Positions 12,388-33,393 of a DNA stretch of 36,711 bases are shown in pieces (positions within the stretch are counted from its first letter, which is position 1; every line of letters starts with the position of its first letter). The position numbers and the translations under genes were made by a program. Below the pieces are notes generated by a model. The model worked only from the letters and a program-made list of their open reading frames with translations, was not told the origin of the DNA and searched no databases. The stretch comes from Kamptonema formosum PCC 10802 (lineage in GTDB: Bacteria; Cyanobacteriota; Cyanobacteriia; Cyanobacteriales; Oscillatoriaceae). Location: NCBI RefSeq assembly GCF_000332335.1, contig NZ_KB235948.1, positions 3,668,009 to 3,704,719 of the forward strand. The letters are read 5' to 3'.

Positions 12388-13782
12388 ATGATAGAAGTTG
12401 AGCATTTAAGCAAAAGCTACGGCTCGACACCGGCAATAATCGATGTCACCTTTGCCGTAGAGCCTGGAGAAATTCTGGGCTTCCTCGGTCCCAACGGGGC
12501 GGGGAAAACCACAACGATGCGGATTTTGGCGGGGTATTTGCCCGCGACGAGCGGCACCGCCCGGGTGGCCGGCTTCGATGTCCACGAAAATTCAATGGCG
12601 GTGCGGCAGCGGATAGGCTACCTGCCCGAAACGCCACCACTCTATCCGGAAATGACGGTAGAGGGATTCCTGCACTTCGTGGCTAGGCTGAAGCGGGTGC
12701 CTGCAGGCGATCGTCCCGATCGCGTGGAGTACGCCCTCAAGCGCTGCAACCTGCTAGAAAAGCGGCAAGTCTTGATTCGCAAGCTTTCTAAAGGGTTCCG
12801 GCAGCGAGTCGGCATCGCCCAGGCGATTGTCCACGACCCGCCGGCGATCATTCTCGACGAGCCCACCACCGGCCTCGATCCGCGCCAAATTATCGACGCC
12901 CGCAATTTGATCAAGAGCTTGGCCGGGGATCACACCATTATCCTGTCCACCCATATTTTGCCGGAAGTCAGCATGACCTGCAGCCGGGTGGTAATTATCA
13001 ATCAGGGCCGCGTGGTGGCCACCGATACGCCGGCAAACCTGATGGCTCAGCTGGCGAGCGGTTCGCGCTACGAGCTGGAGGTGGATGGGGACGCTGCTGT
13101 TGCCCTGCAGCTGCTGGAAAAAGTGCCCGGAGTGATATCGGTTGAGCTGATGCCGGCAGACAACCTGCCGGAAAATCGCCACCTGCTGCGGCTGACCGCC
13201 GGGCCAACAGCAGCACCGGCACCGGAGATTGTCGCGGCTTTAGTGTCAGCGGGGCTCGGCTTGTACCAAATGAGGCCGGTGCAAGCTAGCCTCGAAGATG
13301 TATTTTTAGAAGTGACTACGGAGGAAAAGACACTCGCACTCGAAAAGGCGAGTGGCTTTCAGCTGGAAACAGCACCGGCACCGGAAATTGCCAGTGGCGA
13401 ACAGCAGGAAAAGACGCCGGCACCCGAACTTGCCAGTGGCGAAGACCAGGAAAAGACACCGGCACCCGAAATTGTCAGTGGCGAAGCATCTCAAAAGACA
13501 CCGGCACCCGAGTCTGTGAGTGGGGATATCTCTGAAAAAACACCGTCACCCGAGTCTGTGAGTGGCTTTCAGGAAGAAGAGATAAAAGAGGTAGGGACTA
13601 GCAGCGCCGCGACCCCAGAGGAAAATCCGTTTCAAATCGATGAAGAACCTTTAGAGAGCGCGCCCACCTGGGTGGGAGTAAACGACCTAATGCCAGTGTG
13701 TGAAGATGTGGATGTGGAGTCAGACCTGTGGGCGAGCGATGATGTGAAGGATGAAAGTCAGAAAAAATCTCACAATAATTAA
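12388..13782 (+). CDS. ABC transporter ATP-binding protein (GldA-like) with repeat tail
   Basis: This 464-aa protein has a standard ATPase domain in its first ~310 residues: Walker A GPNGAGKTT (34-42), signature LSKGFRQR (133-140), Walker B AIILDEPTTGLDP (153-165) and the switch His at 189 (LSTHILPE). The NBD resembles the GldA/CcmA-type export ATPases. A tail of about 150 residues follows. It begins with five 14-aa repeats (pattern SGExxEKTPAPEx, residues 321-390) and continues acidic (DLMPVCEDVDVESDLWASDD). The tail has no homologue that I recognise, is expected to be disordered, and is unusual for an ABC ATPase. The gene starts a row of same-strand genes with a permease, a GldG-like protein and a DUF4340 protein, a conserved cyanobacterial export module of unknown substrate. 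Confidence 0.92.
   Translation: MIEVEHLSKSYGSTPAIIDVTFAVEPGEILGFLGPNGAGKTTTMRILAGYLPATSGTARVAGFDVHENSMAVRQRIGYLPETPPLYPEMTVEGFLHFVARLKRVPAGDRPDRVEYALKRCNLLEKRQVLIRKLSKGFRQRVGIAQAIVHDPPAIILDEPTTGLDPRQIIDARNLIKSLAGDHTIILSTHILPEVSMTCSRVVIINQGRVVATDTPANLMAQLASGSRYELEVDGDAAVALQLLEKVPGVISVELMPADNLPENRHLLRLTAGPTAAPAPEIVAALVSAGLGLYQMRPVQASLEDVFLEVTTEEKTLALEKASGFQLETAPAPEIASGEQQEKTPAPELASGEDQEKTPAPEIVSGEASQKTPAPESVSGDISEKTPSPESVSGFQEEEIKEVGTSSAATPEENPFQIDEEPLESAPTWVGVNDLMPVCEDVDVESDLWASDDVKDESQKKSHNN
13348..13557 (+). repeat. Five 42-bp in-frame repeats in the ABC ATPase tail
   Basis: Five units of 42 bp encode 14-aa repeats (ASGEQQEKTPAPEL type). The 2nd to 4th units are most alike (words such as ACACCGGCACCCGAA and GCCAGTGGCGAA), which suggests recent in-frame expansion. 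Confidence 0.85.
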
Positions 13783-25572: not shown

Positions 25573-25769
25573 TGATGTCCCTTTGCCGCTACTTTCTTCG
25601 ATCGTAACAATCATCAGGGGCAGTGGCGGCGGTCGGATGCCCGAACCTCAAGAGATCGCCCGGTCGCTCGGCTGGGCAGTGTGGGGATGGGGCCGTCTCC
25701 GCCGGTGGCCACCCACACCATTGCTCTTGCGAGTTACAGAGAGGGCGGAAAATATTCCGTCTGATTGAT

Positions 25770-26645
25770 TTAGTTGGAAAATAAACCGCCCGCGTGAAGG
25801 GACGCCAAGAAGGGAGAGGGCACCGGCTTCCTTTGTCGGTCGCCAATGCCGGCATCCGATCGCACAGAAGACAGCAGCCTTGCTTTTCTCAGAAGAAATG
25901 TCAGTACCGTCTCCTCTCGGGAGATAATCTCAGCCGCGCCCTCCATGCCGGCGGCGATGGCGCACTGACTAGAGCCGGCACTCAACACGCGGCTTTCTGG
26001 CTCCACAGTCACTTCGTAGTAAGCGCCGGCGGAACTCCCCCCACCCCCCTGCAGTCCAGGGGTGCCGCCGGTCTGCAGTGAGGAGTTATTGCTTTGAGGC
26101 GAGATAGCATCTGGAGAAATAGCCGTCTGGAGAAATAGCCGTGACCGCGCCTTTGAGGGTGCCGCAGTCGGGATAGGGACAGGCTCCCACCGGCAAGAGC
26201 GCCGTTTGGCCAGTTTTCACTTTGCCGATCTCCCCAGACGCCACAAAAACTTTGATCTCCAAAGCAGCCTCACTGGGGGCAATTTAAGCAATCGCATCTC
26301 CCGCACGCACCATTTGAGATGTGTTGCGGAGATTGAGTTGCTGTATCGTGCCAGATACCGGTGTTCTGAGGGCCGTATTTTTCAGTTCAGTTTCGAGTTG
26401 CTGCAGGTCTTGCCTGTCGCTGTCCACTTTATTTTGCAGCTCAAATATTTTGCGCTAATAGCTGATTGTTCTCCTGATTAAATATGGCTAAATTGGACTC
26501 ACCGCCAGCTTTCTTTTGGTATATTTCGCTGGAATATTGCAACATCAGCTTCACTGAGCTTGAGCGCGGCTGACACCTTTTTCACCCTAGCACCGGCAGC
26601 TTCAACCGCTGACGCCTGGTATATCACAGCGTCAGTGAAAATGGT
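25770..26645 (-). pseudogene. HlyD-family membrane fusion protein, decayed
   Basis: Minus-strand translation gives a clear HlyD C-terminal half: LRTPVSGTIQQLNLRNTSQM, VRAGDAIA, a stop (TAA at 26285-26287), then VFVASGEIGKVKTGQTALLP, VGACPYPDCGTLKGAVTAIS, and finally MEGAAEIISREETVLTFLLR. A 16-bp exact tandem duplication (26111-26142) shifts the frame after TAIS; removing one copy restores an unbroken frame to the end. More frameshifts occur upstream (about 26450-26520), where ALKLSEADVAIFQRN can still be read. The N-terminal membrane span is missing. HlyD proteins bridge an inner-membrane exporter to the outer membrane. Cyanobacterial RiPP and bacteriocin exporters commonly have this subtype. 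Confidence 0.85.
26111..26142. repeat. 16-bp exact tandem duplication
   Basis: CTGGAGAAATAGCCGT occurs twice in a row. It causes a +16 frameshift in the HlyD remnant and is identical between copies, so it is probably a late event. Confidence 0.9.
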
Positions 26646-27521
26646 TTAGGGAAAGTTGGGTAAATTCAGCCTTATCTGTCTGAGCCCCACAATCAAAACC
26701 GCTGTGTGATGGCGCTCTCCTTGGAATCTGGACTGAAGCTTGTCTGCAAACCAAAGGGTTTGGGCGTAGAAGTCGCCTACACTAAGTTTTTGGAGTGGTG
26801 CAACCGGGACGGCGCAGCCTTACCTTTCAAAGTCCTAAAAGTGTGCGATATGCAAACGCCTGGCTGGGTGGAATATGCGCCGCATCTCCCCTGTCAGGAT
26901 GAGGAAGCGGCGCAGCGTTTCTATCAGCGAGCGGGGATGCTGCTCTGCCTCCAGCACGCACTGAGAGAGGTAGACTTTAACAAGGATAATTTAATTGCTG
27001 GCGGCGAGCATCTGGTGCTGGATCGGATGGAAACGGTGGCGCACCCCGAGGCGAAACCAATGGCGGAGTTTCCAGAAATCACAGAAGCTGAGACAGCTGT
27101 AAACCGGCATTTTTGGGACTCTGTATTGCGCACCGGCTTGTTACCCCGCTGGGAGTTCAGCAAAGATGGCTTGCCGGTATGGAAAACCGAGAAAATCTCT
27201 GAGGATGTGGAAGTGGCGCTGCAGACGACATGCCGGCACAGTTTGCAGGGTGTGGATTGCGTGTGCTGCGGTAATTTTGGCCGGCTGGAGGCGCTGCTTG
27301 CCGGTGCGCAAAAACTCTCTCGCCCCCAGTTGCGCGACATCGCTGTGCAAAAAGCCGCTTGGGGGGTGGCGAGAGCGCAAAAAATGGGAGGCTATCAGTT
27401 TCCAAATTTGCCGGTGTTCGCCTTTAGCCCCAGCTTCTTTCAGGGAACTTCTGGGATTAGCTACGAGTTGCTGCGTCTGGCGCATCCAGACCTATTGCCC
27501 TCTGTTCTGTTGTGGGAATAA
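26646..27521 (+). pseudogene. lanM: LanM lanthipeptide synthetase remnant with large internal deletion
   Basis: From 26646 the frame reads LGKVG, a TAA, then IQPYLSEPHNQNRCVMALSL. From the GTG at 26706 it is open for 271 codons. Residues 1-155 match the LanM dehydratase domain (SGLKLVCKPKGLGVEVAY, GWVEYAPHLPCQDEEAAQRF, DSVLRTGLLPRWEFSKDG). Residues from about 156 match the end of the LanC-like cyclase domain (GVDCVCCGNFGRLEALLAGA, PSFFQGTSGISYELLRLAHP, LLPSVLLWE). Complete LanM proteins have about 1000 residues, so roughly 600 or more are lost at a junction near 27171, as well as the true N-terminus. The CCG zinc motif of ProcM-type enzymes is kept, but its upstream Cys partner is lost. The usual DxHxxN of the dehydratase reads DFNKDN, without the His. 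It is very probably inactive. Confidence 0.85.
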
Positions 27522-27607
27522 TACCAATTTCTCTCGTTCCCAGGCTCTGCCTGGGAACGCAATCTGGAGGCTCTGCCTCCTTTAAACGGAAAAGCAGGTT
27601 AAAAACC

Positions 27608-27722
27608 TATAGCAGTAGCCAGTTAGGGCGCGGACATTAGATCGAGAGGGCAGGCGAGACGCCTGCCCTACGCTTTTTATCCCTAGGCCACTGATGTCCT
27701 AACCAATATGACTGCTGCTATA
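27608..27722 (+). repeat. MITE-A copy 11, short sub-family
   Basis: A 115-bp copy matching 19786-19901, with interior GGCAGGCGAGACGCCTGCCC forming an extra inverted repeat. It lies between the lanM remnant and the graspetide ligase genes. A GTTCCCAGGCTCTGCCTGGGAA hairpin-type dispersed repeat precedes it near 27537-27559. Confidence 0.85.
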
Positions 27723-27876
27723 ACAGCTCAGTTAATCTGGTAGCGGTCAACAAGATCGTGTAGAAAGGCGACATGTCGCGTCTCTAGAACAGGACTTACG
27801 CAGCGACACTTAATGTGGGGTGGGTTACGCTATCGCGTTCCCCACCCTACAGATAGAGGCTTGGCGTCTTGGCGAT

Positions 27877-28854
27877 TCAATCTTTCCCTCCCAGCAACAC
27901 ACCGGCGAGAGCCCTGGAAATGGGGAAATGTGGCGGACAGCATTCCAGCCAGAAGAATTCCCCAACCGGATTTATCTCCAGAAAAACATGACGCCCGTCA
28001 GGGGTGAGTATAACATCTATCGCCCCATAATTCAAGCCGAAATGCTGCGTCAGATCCAGCAGTTTTCCCGCCACATCTTCGGGGAGACTGTAAGGCTCCC
28101 AGTCTTTTATCATAACCAGACCCTGCCGCCGCCAGTCGTCTTGCGCCCGCTGGTTTTTCTGGGAGTCAATCCCGGCGGCAAACACCTGTTTCCCGACAAC
28201 TGTCACGCGCAGTTCCAGCGCTTTGGGAACCTTTTCCTGAAAGGTCATCGGACAGTAGCGCAATCCGTCGAGACTGTCAATATCCTTCGGTTTGAGCCTG
28301 TTGGTGAATACAACTTTTTCCTTTCCCCCTTCATAGATGGCAAAGGAGGAGAGCATCTTTACTATCAAATCCCCCTCGCACTCTTTGGCGAATTTTCGCA
28401 CCGCTTCTGGATTGTTTGTGATCAGGGTGCGGGGGGTATCTAAACCCATATCTCGCGCGACTTGCAGCTGAAGCTGTTTGTTTTCCGCACGGCGGATATT
28501 CGGCACTGGATCGAGGTGAAATGCTCTAATACTGGCAATCGCACCCTGAACAGTCGCCCGCGATTCCTGTATGGATGCGTCTCGGAGTTGGGCGTCCATT
28601 GTGGCGGGAATGCGAGCCCCAATTCTAATCCGCCTGTACCAGACGGCGGATACGTCGTTGAGATTGATATCTCCGGACTCGGAAGCGAGAGTTAGCTGCT
28701 CTTTTCCCCCGCTATAGCATAAATCGAGCCGCACTTCGGTGGGAAACCGGTCTGTGTCGAATCGAAACGCTTTTCCTCCGCGCTCCTCTATGGCGTTTAT
28801 CACCATCGGGATACTTTCGTTGTCTTCGCTGTGGGTAATGATTAAGACTGTCAT
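27877..28854 (-). CDS. mdnC: Graspetide ATP-grasp ligase, MdnC/MvdD type (lactone forming)
   Basis: This 325-aa protein starts MTVLIITHSEDNESIPMVIN, followed by GGKAFRFDTDRFPTEVRLDL, the typical N-terminal domain of microviridin ligases. The ATP-grasp part contains NKQLQLQVARDMGLDTPRTL, LIVKMLSSFAIYEG, the MTFQEKVPKALELRVTVVG strand and, at the end, the metal/ATP site AIDVILTPDGRHVFLEINPV then GEFFWLE. MdnC-type enzymes phosphorylate core Asp/Glu side chains and form the Thr and Ser ester (omega-ester) rings. The similarity to MdnC rather than MdnB is judged from the THSEDNE start. It starts 15 bases after the mdnB stop, so the two are co-transcribed and probably coupled. The stop codon overlaps a dispersed repeat (TTGGCGTCTTGGCGATTCAA). 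Confidence 0.9.
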   Translation of the reverse strand: MTVLIITHSEDNESIPMVINAIEERGGKAFRFDTDRFPTEVRLDLCYSGGKEQLTLASESGDINLNDVSAVWYRRIRIGARIPATMDAQLRDASIQESRATVQGAIASIRAFHLDPVPNIRRAENKQLQLQVARDMGLDTPRTLITNNPEAVRKFAKECEGDLIVKMLSSFAIYEGGKEKVVFTNRLKPKDIDSLDGLRYCPMTFQEKVPKALELRVTVVGKQVFAAGIDSQKNQRAQDDWRRQGLVMIKDWEPYSLPEDVAGKLLDLTQHFGLNYGAIDVILTPDGRHVFLEINPVGEFFWLECCPPHFPISRALAGVLLGGKD

Positions 28855-28869
28855 ATCAGTATGTGCTCT

Positions 28870-29841
28870 CTATGCTAGCAGTGCGCCGGCGATGGCGTCG
28901 GAAATCGGATAGCCTAAATCTCGCTCGATCATCCCCCACTCGCCGGTGGGGTTAATTTCCAGGAAGACATATTCACTGTCGGGCGTTTCGATGAAGTCAA
29001 AGGCTCCAAAGTGCAGCCCAAATTCTGCCATGAAGGCATTGAGGCAACCGGCAACTTGACTGGGAAGTTCCGCCGGCTCCCAGACGCACTCTTCTGGTTT
29101 GGCTCGCCGCCAATCGGTTGCGGTTGCGGAATAGCGAGAGGCGTCGAGCGCCCCGACAAACAGGTTTCCCGCCACAAATATCACCCGCAACTCTCTCCGC
29201 TTTGGGATTTCCTCTTGGAAAACCATCGGGCTGTAGCGCAGCGACTCCGCCTCAGCCAAGTCTTGCTCTCTGACAGTGCTGGTGTAGAGGAAGAAGGAGG
29301 AGCCTTCCATGCTGTATGAAAGGGGAGTCAGGAGTTTGGCAACCATTTTTCCCCCGACTTCTTGGAAAAACGCCCGCGCTTCCTCAGGGTGGTTGGTGAC
29401 GAGGGTGCGGGGGATTTGCAAGCCGACTTTTCTGGCAATTTTTAGCTGGCGCTGCTTGTTTTCTGCCTCGGAAATCCGCTGCAAGTCATCCACCCAGAGG
29501 GCTTCGCTGAGGCTGTCTAAAAAACCCTCTAGGGCAGCTCTCGACTCTCTGGCGCACGACTCGCGGAATTTTGGGGCGAGTTCGCTGGGGAGTTTTGGCT
29601 GCCAGAGCCGGCGCATCCAGACGGAGCGCACTTCTTCGCTTGCGAGAGATTGCTCGCCTTCTTCGAGCCGGTGAGCCACCCCGGAAATGCTGAACCGGGC
29701 GGAAATCCGCACGGCTGCGGGAAATTGATCTGTATTGAAACGAAAGGGTTTTGCGCCCCGTTGCGAGAGGGCGTCTGCCACTCTGTCAATTGTGAAGTAA
29801 TCGCCACTGTGCGTGAGCAGTAAAACAGCGTCTCTCGGCAT
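28870..29841 (-). CDS. mdnB: Graspetide ATP-grasp ligase, MdnB/MvdC type (lactam forming)
   Basis: This 323-aa protein starts MPRDAVLLLTHSGDYFTIDR and GAKPFRFNTDQFPAAVRISA, the MdnB-type N-terminus. Later motifs are ENKQRQLKIARKVGLQIPRT, MVAKLLTPLSYSMEG, MVFQEEIPKRRELRVIFVAG and AFDFIETPDSEYVFLEINPT then GEWGMIE. MdnB-type enzymes close the final omega-amide ring between the core Lys and an acidic residue after MdnC has made the esters. It is the first ligase of the pair. The stretch to the nearest precursor gene upstream (30184) is 342 bases and contains a MITE-B hairpin only 34 bases before the ATG. I see no good ribosome binding site. A cytosolic enzyme, complete in length. Confidence 0.9.
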   Translation of the reverse strand: MPRDAVLLLTHSGDYFTIDRVADALSQRGAKPFRFNTDQFPAAVRISARFSISGVAHRLEEGEQSLASEEVRSVWMRRLWQPKLPSELAPKFRESCARESRAALEGFLDSLSEALWVDDLQRISEAENKQRQLKIARKVGLQIPRTLVTNHPEEARAFFQEVGGKMVAKLLTPLSYSMEGSSFFLYTSTVREQDLAEAESLRYSPMVFQEEIPKRRELRVIFVAGNLFVGALDASRYSATATDWRRAKPEECVWEPAELPSQVAGCLNAFMAEFGLHFGAFDFIETPDSEYVFLEINPTGEWGMIERDLGYPISDAIAGALLA

Positions 29842-29874
29842 GCCGGTTATATCGGTTTGGGTTGAATACCATCA

Positions 29875-29950
29875 TATAGCAGTTCTCAGTTAGATGAACT
29901 AGGGCCCAGAAACCCGGTTTCTTTAAGAAACCGGGTTTCTCAGTACCTCA
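29875..29950 (+). repeat. MITE-B copy 5 in the leader of mdnB
   Basis: TATAGCAGTTCTCAGTTAGA then TGAACTAGGG, then the perfect core palindrome (15-bp stem of AGAAACCCGGTTTCT with its complement, 29910-29942) and CAGTACCTCA. The right arm is truncated. On the transcript from the precursor genes this forms a strong hairpin just ahead of mdnB. Confidence 0.85.
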
Positions 29951-30010
29951 ATGGCTGCTAATTTCGGTTAATCTGTGCGATAGGTTGGAACAGCTGCAAA
30001 CTGGGGTTGG

Positions 30011-30101
30011 GGCAGCAGTGGCTAAATAAAAATGTGGCTACTGTCCAATCAAGAAAGAGAAATTTCCTTTCTTGGCGCAGAGTTCGATTAACACTGCTGC
30101 C
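30011..30101 (-). other. Stem-loop element downstream of the four-core precursor
   Basis: GGCAGCAGTG and its complement CACTGCTGCC bound a 91-base segment. Inside it CAAGAAAG/CTTTCTTG forms a second stem (30048-30074). The same structure follows the second precursor (30762-30853), so it was duplicated with the gene. It may be a transcript end or a small mobile palindrome. Confidence 0.5.
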
Positions 30102-30183
30102 TCAGGGAGATATTATGCAGGAAGCCGGTTTTCGCCCTCACCGGCGCGTGCGCCAGTTGGGGGAGCCGGCTCCCGGAAGGCGT

Positions 30184-30495
30184 TTATTCGGCTATGTTGT
30201 CATCTCCGTCTGATGGGTATTTCAGGGTTACGTTCACATCCTCATTATCAGATGGGAACTTCTCCGTCACCATACCGCCGCAGCCACCCCCATCCTCGCT
30301 GTCAGATGGGTACTTCCGCGTCTGAACACCGCCTTCTTCGCTGTCAGATGGGTACTTCAGCGTCACCATGTCAGCGCCACCGGCTATGGCTTGCATCTCT
30401 TCGTCAGAGAGCTCTTCAGTACCTTGCCCTTCCAGGAAGCGGGCGAAGAAGGGAACTGCCTCTGGCTGCCTGCCTTGCTTTTCTTTATCAGACAT
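30184..30495 (-). CDS. mdnA: Microviridin-type graspetide precursor with four cores
   Basis: This 103-aa peptide has a clear ribosome binding site (AGGAG, 9 bases before the ATG). The leader (1-40) contains PFFARFLEGQ (15-24), the helix that MdnB/MdnC bind, and ends ELSDEEMQAIAGG, a double-glycine cleavage site. Four cores follow: TLKYPSDSEE (45-54), TRKYPSDSED (59-68), TEKFPSDNED (77-86) and TLKYPSDGDD (90-99). In each, the Thr, Lys, Ser and the Asp after PS occupy ring positions (Thr-Asp ester, Ser-acid ester, Lys-acid amide). The residue after PSD, Trp in classical microviridins, is Ser, Ser, Asn or Gly. The last core has Asp at both final acid positions. Extra GG pairs (55-56, 69-74) separate cores. 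The product is presumably a serine-protease inhibitor or a related multi-cyclic peptide. Confidence 0.93.
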   Translation of the reverse strand: MSDKEKQGRQPEAVPFFARFLEGQGTEELSDEEMQAIAGGADMVTLKYPSDSEEGGVQTRKYPSDSEDGGGCGGMVTEKFPSDNEDVNVTLKYPSDGDDNIAE

Positions 30496-30761
30496 AGGTT
30501 TTTTCTCCTATTTTACGCACCTACAAAATTCCGAAAATGAAAATTAAGTCTGTTTTGATGCTCCCCTGTCTCATTGTAGTTGAGGTTCTATTGGGGTCGC
30601 AAGTTCCCGGCAATATTCAGGCAGTGACAAGCTTTTTTAGCTAAGTAATTTTACTCAAAAATATTAAAAGCGCCAGTCCAAAAGCATGGCTGTTTCCTGC
30701 GCCGCGCAGGCTGCCGGTCGGACAGTACAATACGTTAGAACAGCTGCCAGTTAGGGTTGGG

Positions 30762-30853
30762 GGCAGCAGTGGCTAAATCAAAATCGGGAAACTCTCAAAC
30801 TAAGAAAGAGCGATTTCTTTCCTTGGCGAAGCGCCTGCTCCGTACTGCTGCCT
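30762..30853 (-). other. Stem-loop element downstream of the two-core precursor
   Basis: The paralogous copy of 30011-30101: GGCAGCAGT at 30762 pairs with ACTGCTGCC near 30844-30852. An inner AAGAAAGAG/TTTCTTTCCTT pairing is weaker than in the other copy. Confidence 0.45.
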
Positions 30854-30947
30854 CAAGGAGATAATCATTTAGGAAGCCGGTTTTCGCCCGCAGCGGCGCG
30901 TGCGCCAGTCGGGGCAGCCTGCTCCCGGAACGCTGTTATTCGATCAG

Positions 30948-31166
30948 CTACAAGCTCTCATCACCGTCAGAGGGGTACTTCATCGTCGTCAGCATCTCAT
31001 CACCGTCAGATGGGTACTTCATCGTCGTCACAGGCTTCCTTTTTTTGCCACCGGCTATGGCTTGCATCTCTTCGTCAGACAGTTCTTCAGTGCCTTGCCC
31101 TTCCAGGAAGCGGGCGAAGAAAGGAACGGCCTCTGGCTGCAAACTTTGCTTTTCCTTCTCAGACAT
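30948..31166 (-). CDS. mdnA: Microviridin-type graspetide precursor with two cores
   Basis: This 72-aa peptide has a ribosome binding site (GGAGAA, about 8 bases before the ATG). The leader is nearly identical to that of the neighbour at 30184-30495 (PFFARFLEGQGTEELSDEEM then QAIAGG), so the same ligases and the same peptidase should act on both. After GG comes a basic spacer KKRKPVT, then two cores of identical type: TMKYPSDGDE and TMKYPSDGDE, separated by MLT, with a SL end. The second-ring acid is Asp where classical microviridins have Glu, and Gly replaces Trp. It is the most upstream gene of the row, transcribed toward the other precursor and the ligases. Confidence 0.92.
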   Translation of the reverse strand: MSEKEKQSLQPEAVPFFARFLEGQGTEELSDEEMQAIAGGKKRKPVTTMKYPSDGDEMLTTMKYPSDGDESL

Positions 31167-31410
31167 ATCTTTTGTTCTCCAGGGTTGTATTCTACCATTA
31201 TAGATGAGGTTTTAGGCAAATGGCAAATCCCTAGGAATCGGGAGACAATGGACTTGCTCCAGAGTCTCAATCCCGCAAATTTCTTAAAAGCGCCAGTACC
31301 AGACTTGGGACTTGTGCGACTATCATATTTTTTGTCAGGTGCCATCGCCCGGGAGAAGTATTTTTTATCCGGCACCGGCAATTTCTGAAAAGCGCCAGCC
31401 TAAAAGCATC

Positions 31411-31678
31411 CGTTCTCCACAAAAGTAGGGTGCGTTACCGGCGGCTTCTCGATGATTCTCACAGCCGGCGATCCCGCACCCCACCCTTGCGGTGGGAGAG
31501 CGGTGAAAAACCCTCCTTCTAAGCTTACAGCGGCATTGGTTTCGGTTGGAAAGAAAGAACGGCGAAGCATTGGAGAATGAAAATTTCGGGTGGGCGGTAA
31601 AGAACCCCGCGCCAATGCTTCGCCCCTATATTGAAGCGGATGAAGGGGATATCTCGGGTGAGCCCGCCCCTCCTTGAA
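31411..31678. other. Gap between zorC-like gene and precursor genes
   Basis: About 270 bases with no gene. It contains GTAGGGTGCGTTACC and GCGAAGCATTGGAGAATGAA, words of dispersed cyanobacterial repeats, and an imperfect inverted repeat around GCATTGG/CCAATGC (31568-31616). The promoter of the precursor row should lie in or near 31170-31420. Confidence 0.4.
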
Positions 31679-33160
31679 TTATCGCTCCAGCTGTTCCATT
31701 TCCTTCTGCCACTGTTTTAACTGTTTCTCTCGCTCTTTAAGCTCTTTTTCTGAAAGCACCGGCAGCCCATTGCTGCGGCTGTATTTCCCCCTATCTCTGG
31801 GCAGCCCCGTAAAATATTCCGTACCTTCGTTGGGTAAAATCTTTTTCTCGCTCAGCCCTTTTTCGCAAAAAGTCTGCCAAAATAAGAGCCGGTCAAAAAC
31901 TTCCCCGCCCAGGCGTCGCAGGCGCTTTACTGACAGTTTGGAAGGGCCAAACAAAATTAGCTCGGTTTCTGTTTTTCGCGGGAGCAGGCGAAGCTCGCCG
32001 CCGCGCCCCCGCAAGAATTCTATGCCGAAACACTGCCCAAAATCAAAGATAGAAATTTCTGTGACATCGCTGTCTTCTTCTGCTAAAATATCTACTTTGA
32101 CCTGGAGCTGGTAGCCGAGGGCGGTGACGGATGACTGCGGCAAAACTATGCGGATGCGCTCAATGGATTCGCTGTAGTTCGCCCAGAAATCCCGGCGCAT
32201 TTCTAGCTGGGCGATCTGTTCGTCTTCCAGTCGCAGCATTCTGGCGAGGAGGTTGACGACTTGCTGGAAATAGCTGTAGTTGAGAGCGCCTAGATTGCGG
32301 CGCAGCGCAGATTTGGCGCTGTCGGAAAGCTGGTGCCACCGGCTGCCGGTGCTGCCGGCGCTATAATTTCGCCCGATCAAGTTGAGCACATCTGGCATTT
32401 TTCCTGCAACTTCTGCCGGCATTTTGGGGAGCAATTCCTCAACTGCTGCCAGCTGCTGCTGCGGTGACATCTGCTGCAAGCAGCGCAACAGCCACTCCGC
32501 TTCTTTCTTGTTCGGTGTTGATTTAGCCGGAAATAGGGTAGCGGCGCGCTCGTAAGCGGCCTCGACGGCGCTCGCCCGCGCCGGCAAGCCGGCACGCCGC
32601 ACAAGCTCTTTGGGCGTGATTGTGTACTGCCAGCTGATTTTGGCGATATCGGATGCCGGCTGCTGGCTCCCCGCGAACACTCTGATAAGCTGTACGGCTA
32701 AAGTGTCATCGCCTTTAGCGCGAGGGGCAAAGACAGAGAAGCTCTCGATCAGGGAGGGAGCGAGCGGGGGAGCGGTGAGTTTTTCTGTCTCCAGATTCTT
32801 GACATCTGACTTGTGAATGTGGTAGAGAGCGAGACGCCAGAGCAGGCGTCGTTTCAGCAAGGAGTTGCTGACAGCCGCCTCCCAGATAGCTTCGGAGGTG
32901 GCTGAGCTGGCGTCTGGGTGCTGCGCGTCCCAAGCCGGCTTATTGTAGAGACAGTACACCCACTCTATTTGCGTGAGGCTGCCGGTTTCACCGTTTTGGA
33001 TATCGGCGACAATCTCGTCAAGGAGGCGCAGTTTAGCCGGAGTATTGATGTTGGATACAGCCGGTGGATGGCTGGGGAGTTTTGCCACCGCACGCGCCTG
33101 GAGTTTTGCCGGCACCCATTGGGGCGGGTTTTTGGGGAAATTAAAAGTGAAGTTTTTCAT
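31679..33160 (-). CDS. zorC: EH_Signature-like protein, ZorC-like
   Basis: This 493-aa protein is mostly helical in its first 300 residues. It then shows the region that I assign to the EH_Signature family: RWHQLSDSAKSALRRNLGAL, NYSYFQQVVNLLARML, MRRDFWANYSESIERIRIVL and IFDFGQCFGIEFLRGRGGEL, with a Glu at 381. The last 25 residues are a charged coiled coil. In Zorya, ZorC binds DNA and works with the ZorAB motor. The family's conserved His after the Glu is not present here, as there is no His after residue 276. The gene follows the ZorB-like gene by 233 bases on the same strand, the zorB-zorC order. The assignment rests on motif memory and context, so a different helical protein cannot be excluded. 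Confidence 0.6.
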   Translation of the reverse strand: MKNFTFNFPKNPPQWVPAKLQARAVAKLPSHPPAVSNINTPAKLRLLDEIVADIQNGETGSLTQIEWVYCLYNKPAWDAQHPDASSATSEAIWEAAVSNSLLKRRLLWRLALYHIHKSDVKNLETEKLTAPPLAPSLIESFSVFAPRAKGDDTLAVQLIRVFAGSQQPASDIAKISWQYTITPKELVRRAGLPARASAVEAAYERAATLFPAKSTPNKKEAEWLLRCLQQMSPQQQLAAVEELLPKMPAEVAGKMPDVLNLIGRNYSAGSTGSRWHQLSDSAKSALRRNLGALNYSYFQQVVNLLARMLRLEDEQIAQLEMRRDFWANYSESIERIRIVLPQSSVTALGYQLQVKVDILAEEDSDVTEISIFDFGQCFGIEFLRGRGGELRLLPRKTETELILFGPSKLSVKRLRRLGGEVFDRLLFWQTFCEKGLSEKKILPNEGTEYFTGLPRDRGKYSRSNGLPVLSEKELKEREKQLKQWQKEMEQLER

Positions 33161-33393
33161 ATTTTACCTCATAAGTAGGGTGCGAATCGCGAAGCGTAAC
33201 GCACCAGGAGCTTTTTGTAATCCCCCTCACCCCCAACCCCTCTCCCACTTTGGGGTGAGGGGAGAATTCTTTATTTTTTCCCCCCCTCTCCCTTTATGGG
33301 AGAGGGGGGTTAGGGGGGTGAGGGTGAAACTCTTTGCAAAAATGGGACGCTCCCCAAAGAACGCGGCGCAGTAACGCACCCGCCAGCCTGTTC
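33161..33393. repeat. Dispersed-repeat insertion between zorB-like and zorC-like genes
   Basis: The segment is bounded by TAGGGTGCG (33176) and its complement-like AACGCACCC (33373). It contains a C-run/G-run hairpin (CCCCTCTCCC/GGGAGAGGGG, 33283-33309) and a run of CCCCTCACCCCCAACCCCTC. No gene is present. It separates two genes that are normally close together. Confidence 0.65.

Follow-up and report, generated by a model that had tools for sequence, protein, structure and literature searches.

A class II microviridin cluster in Kamptonema formosum PCC 10802 and the apparent loss of a neighbouring C39 transporter

Is a leader that joins the microviridin helix PFFARFLE to a double-glycine end a new hybrid, and by what route would precursors bearing such a leader be cut and exported? 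These questions are raised by positions 27877-31166 of a 36,711-nucleotide stretch of the K. formosum PCC 10802 genome, the whole of which is termed the window here. Four genes lie on the minus strand of this region and are transcribed in the order two-core precursor, four-core precursor, MvdC-type ligase, MvdD-type ligase:

30948..31166, minus strand: two-core microviridin precursor, 72 aa; open frame, with an orthologue in the congener Oscillatoria princeps RMCB-10
30184..30495, minus strand: four-core microviridin precursor, 103 aa; open frame, with an orthologue in the same congener
28870..29841, minus strand: MvdC-type ATP-grasp ligase, by family a lactam former (TIGR04185, 492.3 bits, cut-off 425)
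27877..28854, minus strand: MvdD-type ATP-grasp ligase, by family a double-lactone former (TIGR04184, 513.5 bits, cut-off 475)

The original prediction, made from the DNA letters, had placed here two precursors with PFFARFLE and an AGG end, and both the open reading frames and the precursor models bear this out. NF033738 matches the four-core precursor with 97 bits and the two-core precursor with 72.2 (cut-off 26), whilst the corresponding scores for PF12559 are 94.1 and 86.2 (cut-off 21). The two predicted ATP-grasp genes are likewise real members of their families, one of the MvdC and one of the MvdD type, each above its equivalog cut-off. The predicted count of 4 + 2 cores was recovered by reading the translated precursors. 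The longer one carries TLKYPSDSEE, TRKYPSDSED, TEKFPSDNED and TLKYPSDGDD and the shorter one two identical copies of TMKYPSDGDE, so that the six cores represent five different sequences. T, K, S, D and two acidic end residues are kept in all six, with F in place of Y in TEKFPSDNED. D, not E, occupies the expected lactam position in three of the six cores (three of the five distinct ones); the core consensus as described in PMC5934393 permits either residue at this position, and 167 of the 245 cores counted in the leader-selected relatives considered below end in ED or DD. GG separates cores 1 and 2 and cores 2 and 3 of the four-core precursor; it is absent between its cores 3 and 4, and between the cores of the two-core precursor.

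Chance is excluded as the source of the precursor and ligase calls by these model scores together with the orthologous precursor pair in a second species. The congener (G002; loci L021 and L028) shares both precursors (2 + 4 cores), both ligases and the flanking genes. Both ligases are 94% identical to their counterparts there, with dN/dS values of 0.18 (MvdC type) and 0.19 (MvdD type) that resemble those of two flanking genes (0.18 and 0.12); this points to purifying selection, which is not datable to after the deletion described below. The values for the precursors are 0.82 (four-core) and 0.54 (two-core), each drawn from few sites.

Both leaders read AVPFFARFLEGQGTEELSDEEMQAIAGG and combine the PFFARFLE helix with an AIAGG end. 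The division of microviridins into classes reportedly goes back to Ahmed et al. 2017. Three classes of precursor are distinguished in the accounts of PMC13039773 and PMC7823629, according to which class II combines one PFFARFL leader with up to five cores, with or without GG separators, and double-glycine motifs, in clusters that often include a C39 transporter. In the window, the PFFARFL motif is present in both leaders, each leader is followed by more than one TxKYPSDx(D/E)(E/D) core within the limit of five (four and two, one with F for Y), AIAGG provides the double-glycine motif in both and MvdC- and MvdD-type ligases lie beside the precursors. The C39 peptidase-transporter, a usual or frequent yet not obligatory feature of the class, was not found in the window. 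Class I is defined by a single core, mostly without a double glycine, and does not accommodate the multi-core, GG-containing precursors seen here. The region 27877-31166 is thus a class II microviridin cluster, and its leader is a normal class II leader, not a new hybrid. By its description in PMC5934393, AMdnA of Anabaena sp. PCC 7120, also of class II, likewise has one leader with several TxKYPSDx(D/E)(E/D) cores, and the macrolactone-forming ATP-grasp ligase AMdnC acts on its three cores as well as on made substrates of 1-4 cores. The window differs from the AMdnA/AMdnC system in having two precursors, of four and two cores, and no C39 transporter nearby.

The frequency of this leader architecture was gauged in loci from a search of 60 relatives, 8 of which have the family, and of 386 genomes of the phylum, 24 of which have it; the window's own genome is counted in each, and the samples partly coincide. 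From 38 loci, 39 distinct precursors with a PFFAR-type motif were obtained, a set that takes in the window's two precursors and the congener's two. Nineteen have GG before the first core and 18 of these, among them all four just mentioned, are multi-core; the other 20 are single-core and have no GG. Three matches were left out of the tally: L071 and L078, whose motifs, PFFVR and PFFER, deviate from the search pattern and which both have GG, and a second match in genome G048 (L013), which has no frame with the leader motif. In the 386-genome search, 13 of the 43 match rows had no locus of their own; two of these were covered by loci from the 60 relatives and the rest entered the analysis only if another locus happened to contain them. 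A leader scan of named genomes, from which 80 of 139 confirmed loci were kept, gave GG in 76 of 80, multi-core precursors in 78 of 80 and both ligases within the stretch examined in 61 of 80; the sample is biased to this leader by a GG-containing query and by use of the pattern EELS.E.M. The joint presence of PFFARFLE and an AGG end, proposed earlier as a distinctive trait, is therefore common. The accompanying statement that classical microviridin leaders lack the double glycine holds for the single-core precursors among the 39 (20 of 21 without GG, the exception being L010) and fails for the multi-core ones (18 of 18 with GG).

Two very large microviridin-type precursors were met among the loci. 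One, in an Arenicellales metagenome-assembled genome (L135:9554-10936, plus strand), has 460 aa with PFFARF at residue 150 and 15 cores, 13 of them different; the other, in a MAG labelled 'bacterium' (L150:9233-10705, plus strand), has 490 aa with PFFARF at residue 262 and 10 cores, all different. Both exceed the figure of up to five cores given for class II in PMC13039773 and PMC7823629. Their long N-terminal parts have no Pfam or NCBIfam match, and MvdC- and MvdD-like genes are present in both loci.

What sets the window apart is the neighbourhood of the cluster. The congener's locus resembles the window, with EH-signature and OmpA-type neighbours common to both. In the congener, the MvdD gene is followed on the opposite strand by a full-length LanM gene (1077 aa) and a C39 ABC transporter (728 aa; L028:2006-4192); beyond these, on the strand of the ligases, lie a Nif11-type precursor, whose leader ends in ISDDEAEIVAGG, and a TPS-domain protein. 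In the window LanM is truncated, and the Nif11-type precursor and the transporter are missing. The corresponding part of the window holds:

26706..27521, plus strand: LanM remnant, 271 aa (TIGR03897, 235 bits, below the cut-off of 304; blastn against the congener; tblastn)
25723..26618, minus strand: decayed stretch, possibly an HlyD remnant (84% alignment to the congener)

By blastn, this part aligns to the congener in pieces only (25723-26618, 26644-27170 and 27171-27520). Relative to the congener, about 8.4 kb are missing, comprising the C39 transporter, the Nif11-type precursor, the TPS-domain gene and the start of LanM, and a further 1533 bp are missing inside LanM, such that in the remnant a part of the first half of LanM runs directly into the final 117 residues. 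The survival of two separate LanM pieces is more simply explained by loss in the window's lineage than by gain in the congener. The HlyD assignment is weak: one HlyD protein matches most of the corresponding stretch of the congener at 22% (E 3e-4), with no long open frame there, and the same query gave no match against the window. Rfam returned a single, sub-threshold match across 25600-33300. A literature search joining microviridin with Oscillatoria princeps found no match, and a plasmid search returned two diverged Nostoc records.

No match to the C39 peptidase (PF03412) was obtained in the window. A candidate at 12391-13041 was rejected, the congener's C39 transporter matching there only by its ATP-binding end. 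There are six C39 matches elsewhere in the genome. Four (L041, L042, L043 and L045) are complete ABC transporters carrying the Cys motif; in L044 the scan did not pick up this motif. On the same contig, the closest match (L046, C3:3211514-3213670) lies about 0.48 Mb away and is an ABC transporter broken by one in-frame TAA; an HlyD-type gene adjoins it. Searched with the congener's C39 transporter, the genome gives a best match of 35% identity. By comparison, the congener's transporter is 65% identical over 714 aa to that of locus L022, which comes from another genus and lies directly beside a three-core precursor. L022 to L024, all from this other genus of the same family (L024 is Microcoleus vaginatus WJT46-NPBG5), combine both ligases with a class II precursor that carries PFFARFLE and AAAGG; they are unlike the window in having one three-core precursor and a C39 gene directly beside it.

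A cluster without a local C39 gene is common. Of the 80 leader-selected loci, 57 are well flanked, with at least 9 kb on each side; 18 of these 57 have a C39 gene in the stretch examined, 8 of them within 1 kb of the precursor, and none was found in the other 39, using as queries two relatives' domains and pattern-picked genes of the window's own genome at E 1e-5, a search by which distant C39 genes can be missed. According to the graspetide survey of PMC8939145, the GG motif occurs in about half of all precursors; the survey states both that a C39 gene is often near microviridin clusters and that it is not typically encoded in ATP-grasp loci. A strict scan for GG precursors around the C39 loci found none, and missed even the congener's Nif11-type precursor; a looser scan gave two small candidates near the genome's own C39 genes (L032 and L033).

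The original prediction also supposed that a double-glycine peptidase exports these precursors. This supposition is weakened, because the C39 transporter adjoining the congener's cluster is missing in the window; cutting and export would most likely depend on a C39 ABC transporter elsewhere in the genome. By analogy with the family, the leader helix would activate both ligases, each core would receive two side-chain esters from MvdD and one amide from MvdC, and the products would be tricyclic serine-protease inhibitors. The leader would then be cut after GG, most likely by the distant C39 transporter, which would also export the product. Cutting at GG alone cannot release every core singly, since GG is wanting between the last two cores of the four-core precursor and between the pair of the two-core precursor. 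The products would then either include pairs of linked cores or depend on another protease, which the release of single cores would require in any case. For fully cyclised products the computed monoisotopic masses are 3539.69 for the two-core peptide and 6498.83 for the four-core peptide after its leader GG; additional cuts after SEEGG and GGGCGG would give pieces of 1643.71, 1757.74 and 3133.40. To this explanation as a whole, namely a class II cluster with cyclisation of the family type, a C39 transporter from elsewhere and a further protease, we assign a probability of roughly 0.88.

Three other readings have to be weighed against it. That the leader is a new cross between microviridin and Nif11/NHLP leaders, and hence marks a new kind of graspetide, is highly improbable. 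The congener's adjoining Nif11-type precursor does have a similar end, and the leaders give weak matches to several leader models, all below cut-off: the Nif11 leader model TIGR03798 (14 and 15.1 bits, cut-off 32.3), the general bacteriocin leader model TIGR01847 (14.8 and 15.5 bits, cut-off 15.7), the type 2 lantibiotic model TIGR03893 (19.8 and 19.2 bits, cut-off 32.95) and Pfam Mersacidin (22 and 17.6 bits, cut-off 27.6). The likeness to Nif11 leaders noted earlier is therefore present but weak, and at these scores the leaders do not count as Nif11 leaders. Against novelty, the same combination is the architecture set out for class II in PMC13039773 and PMC7823629, and it recurs in all 18 multi-core precursors of the 39-precursor set. 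The view of the locus as a multi-core graspetide (microviridin) cluster stands, without the novelty claimed for its leader.

The remaining two readings concern what happens to the precursors. With the transporter gone and LanM reduced to a remnant, the cluster might be losing its function, the precursors being modified without export or not made at all. The missing 8.4 kb and 1533 bp are consistent with this, as is the want of a close C39 homologue elsewhere in the genome; yet both ligases and both precursors are open, the ligases evolve at rates like those of the two flanking genes and most well-flanked relatives (39 of 57) show no C39 gene in the stretch examined, and we regard decay as distinctly unlikely. 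Alternatively, a non-C39 protease could release the cores, for example by cutting after their acidic ends, with GG serving for the first cut only or being a relic. The missing inter-core GG motifs and the lack of a local C39 gene would suit such a scheme, and there are precedents: a bifunctional non-C39 protease, NosP, processes class I microviridins in the account of PMC13039773, and class II cores are released in vitro by GluC as described in PMC7823629 and PMC5934393. The GG end is however kept across the class II precursors sampled, and a graspetide C39 transporter that cuts after GG is recounted in PMC13039773, which makes this scheme rather unlikely, albeit worth keeping in mind.

In the intergenic DNA, each precursor is followed by a conserved element:

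29975..30183, minus strand: conserved 3' element after the four-core precursor, with a GGCAGCAGT / ACTGCTGCC stem
30725..30947, minus strand: second copy of the 3' element, after the two-core precursor (alignment and fold)

The element is about 200 bases long and also occurs in the congener; in the window's genome these are the only full-length copies, alongside one 27-base partial match. Compared with shuffled sequences, one copy folds with a z of -2.70, whilst that at 30725-30947 is not clearly better than the shuffles (-0.60). In a four-sequence alignment, both partners have changed in 5 of 47 predicted pairs; the outer GGCAGCAGT stem is almost invariant and contributes none of the five. 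One guess is that the element, lying between the genes, determines how much precursor is made relative to ligase. A scan for terminators in 29800-31400 gave no hit, with 2.2 expected by chance. A promoter-like TTGCCA-18-TATAAT (31226-31197, minus strand; 11 of 12 matches) lies some 30 bases ahead of the two-core precursor's start; the scan of 29800-31400 gave three promoter-like sites, with 1.3 expected by chance.

The new fact is thus the neighbourhood of the cluster, which by comparison with the congener appears to have lost a transporter and kept a LanM remnant. It is tempting, if decidedly tentative, to suppose that an ancestral Oscillatoria C39 transporter served both a Nif11-type lanthipeptide and the multi-core microviridins by way of their similar (I/L)SD.E....AGG ends, and that the window's lineage lost the transporter along with the lanthipeptide and handed its microviridins to another C39 exporter. 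The picture of the microviridin family is unchanged. New core sequences, one with F for Y, are added to the class II microviridins, and the natural deletion offers a way to ask whether class II precursors that have no adjoining C39 transporter are processed by one at all, and by which.
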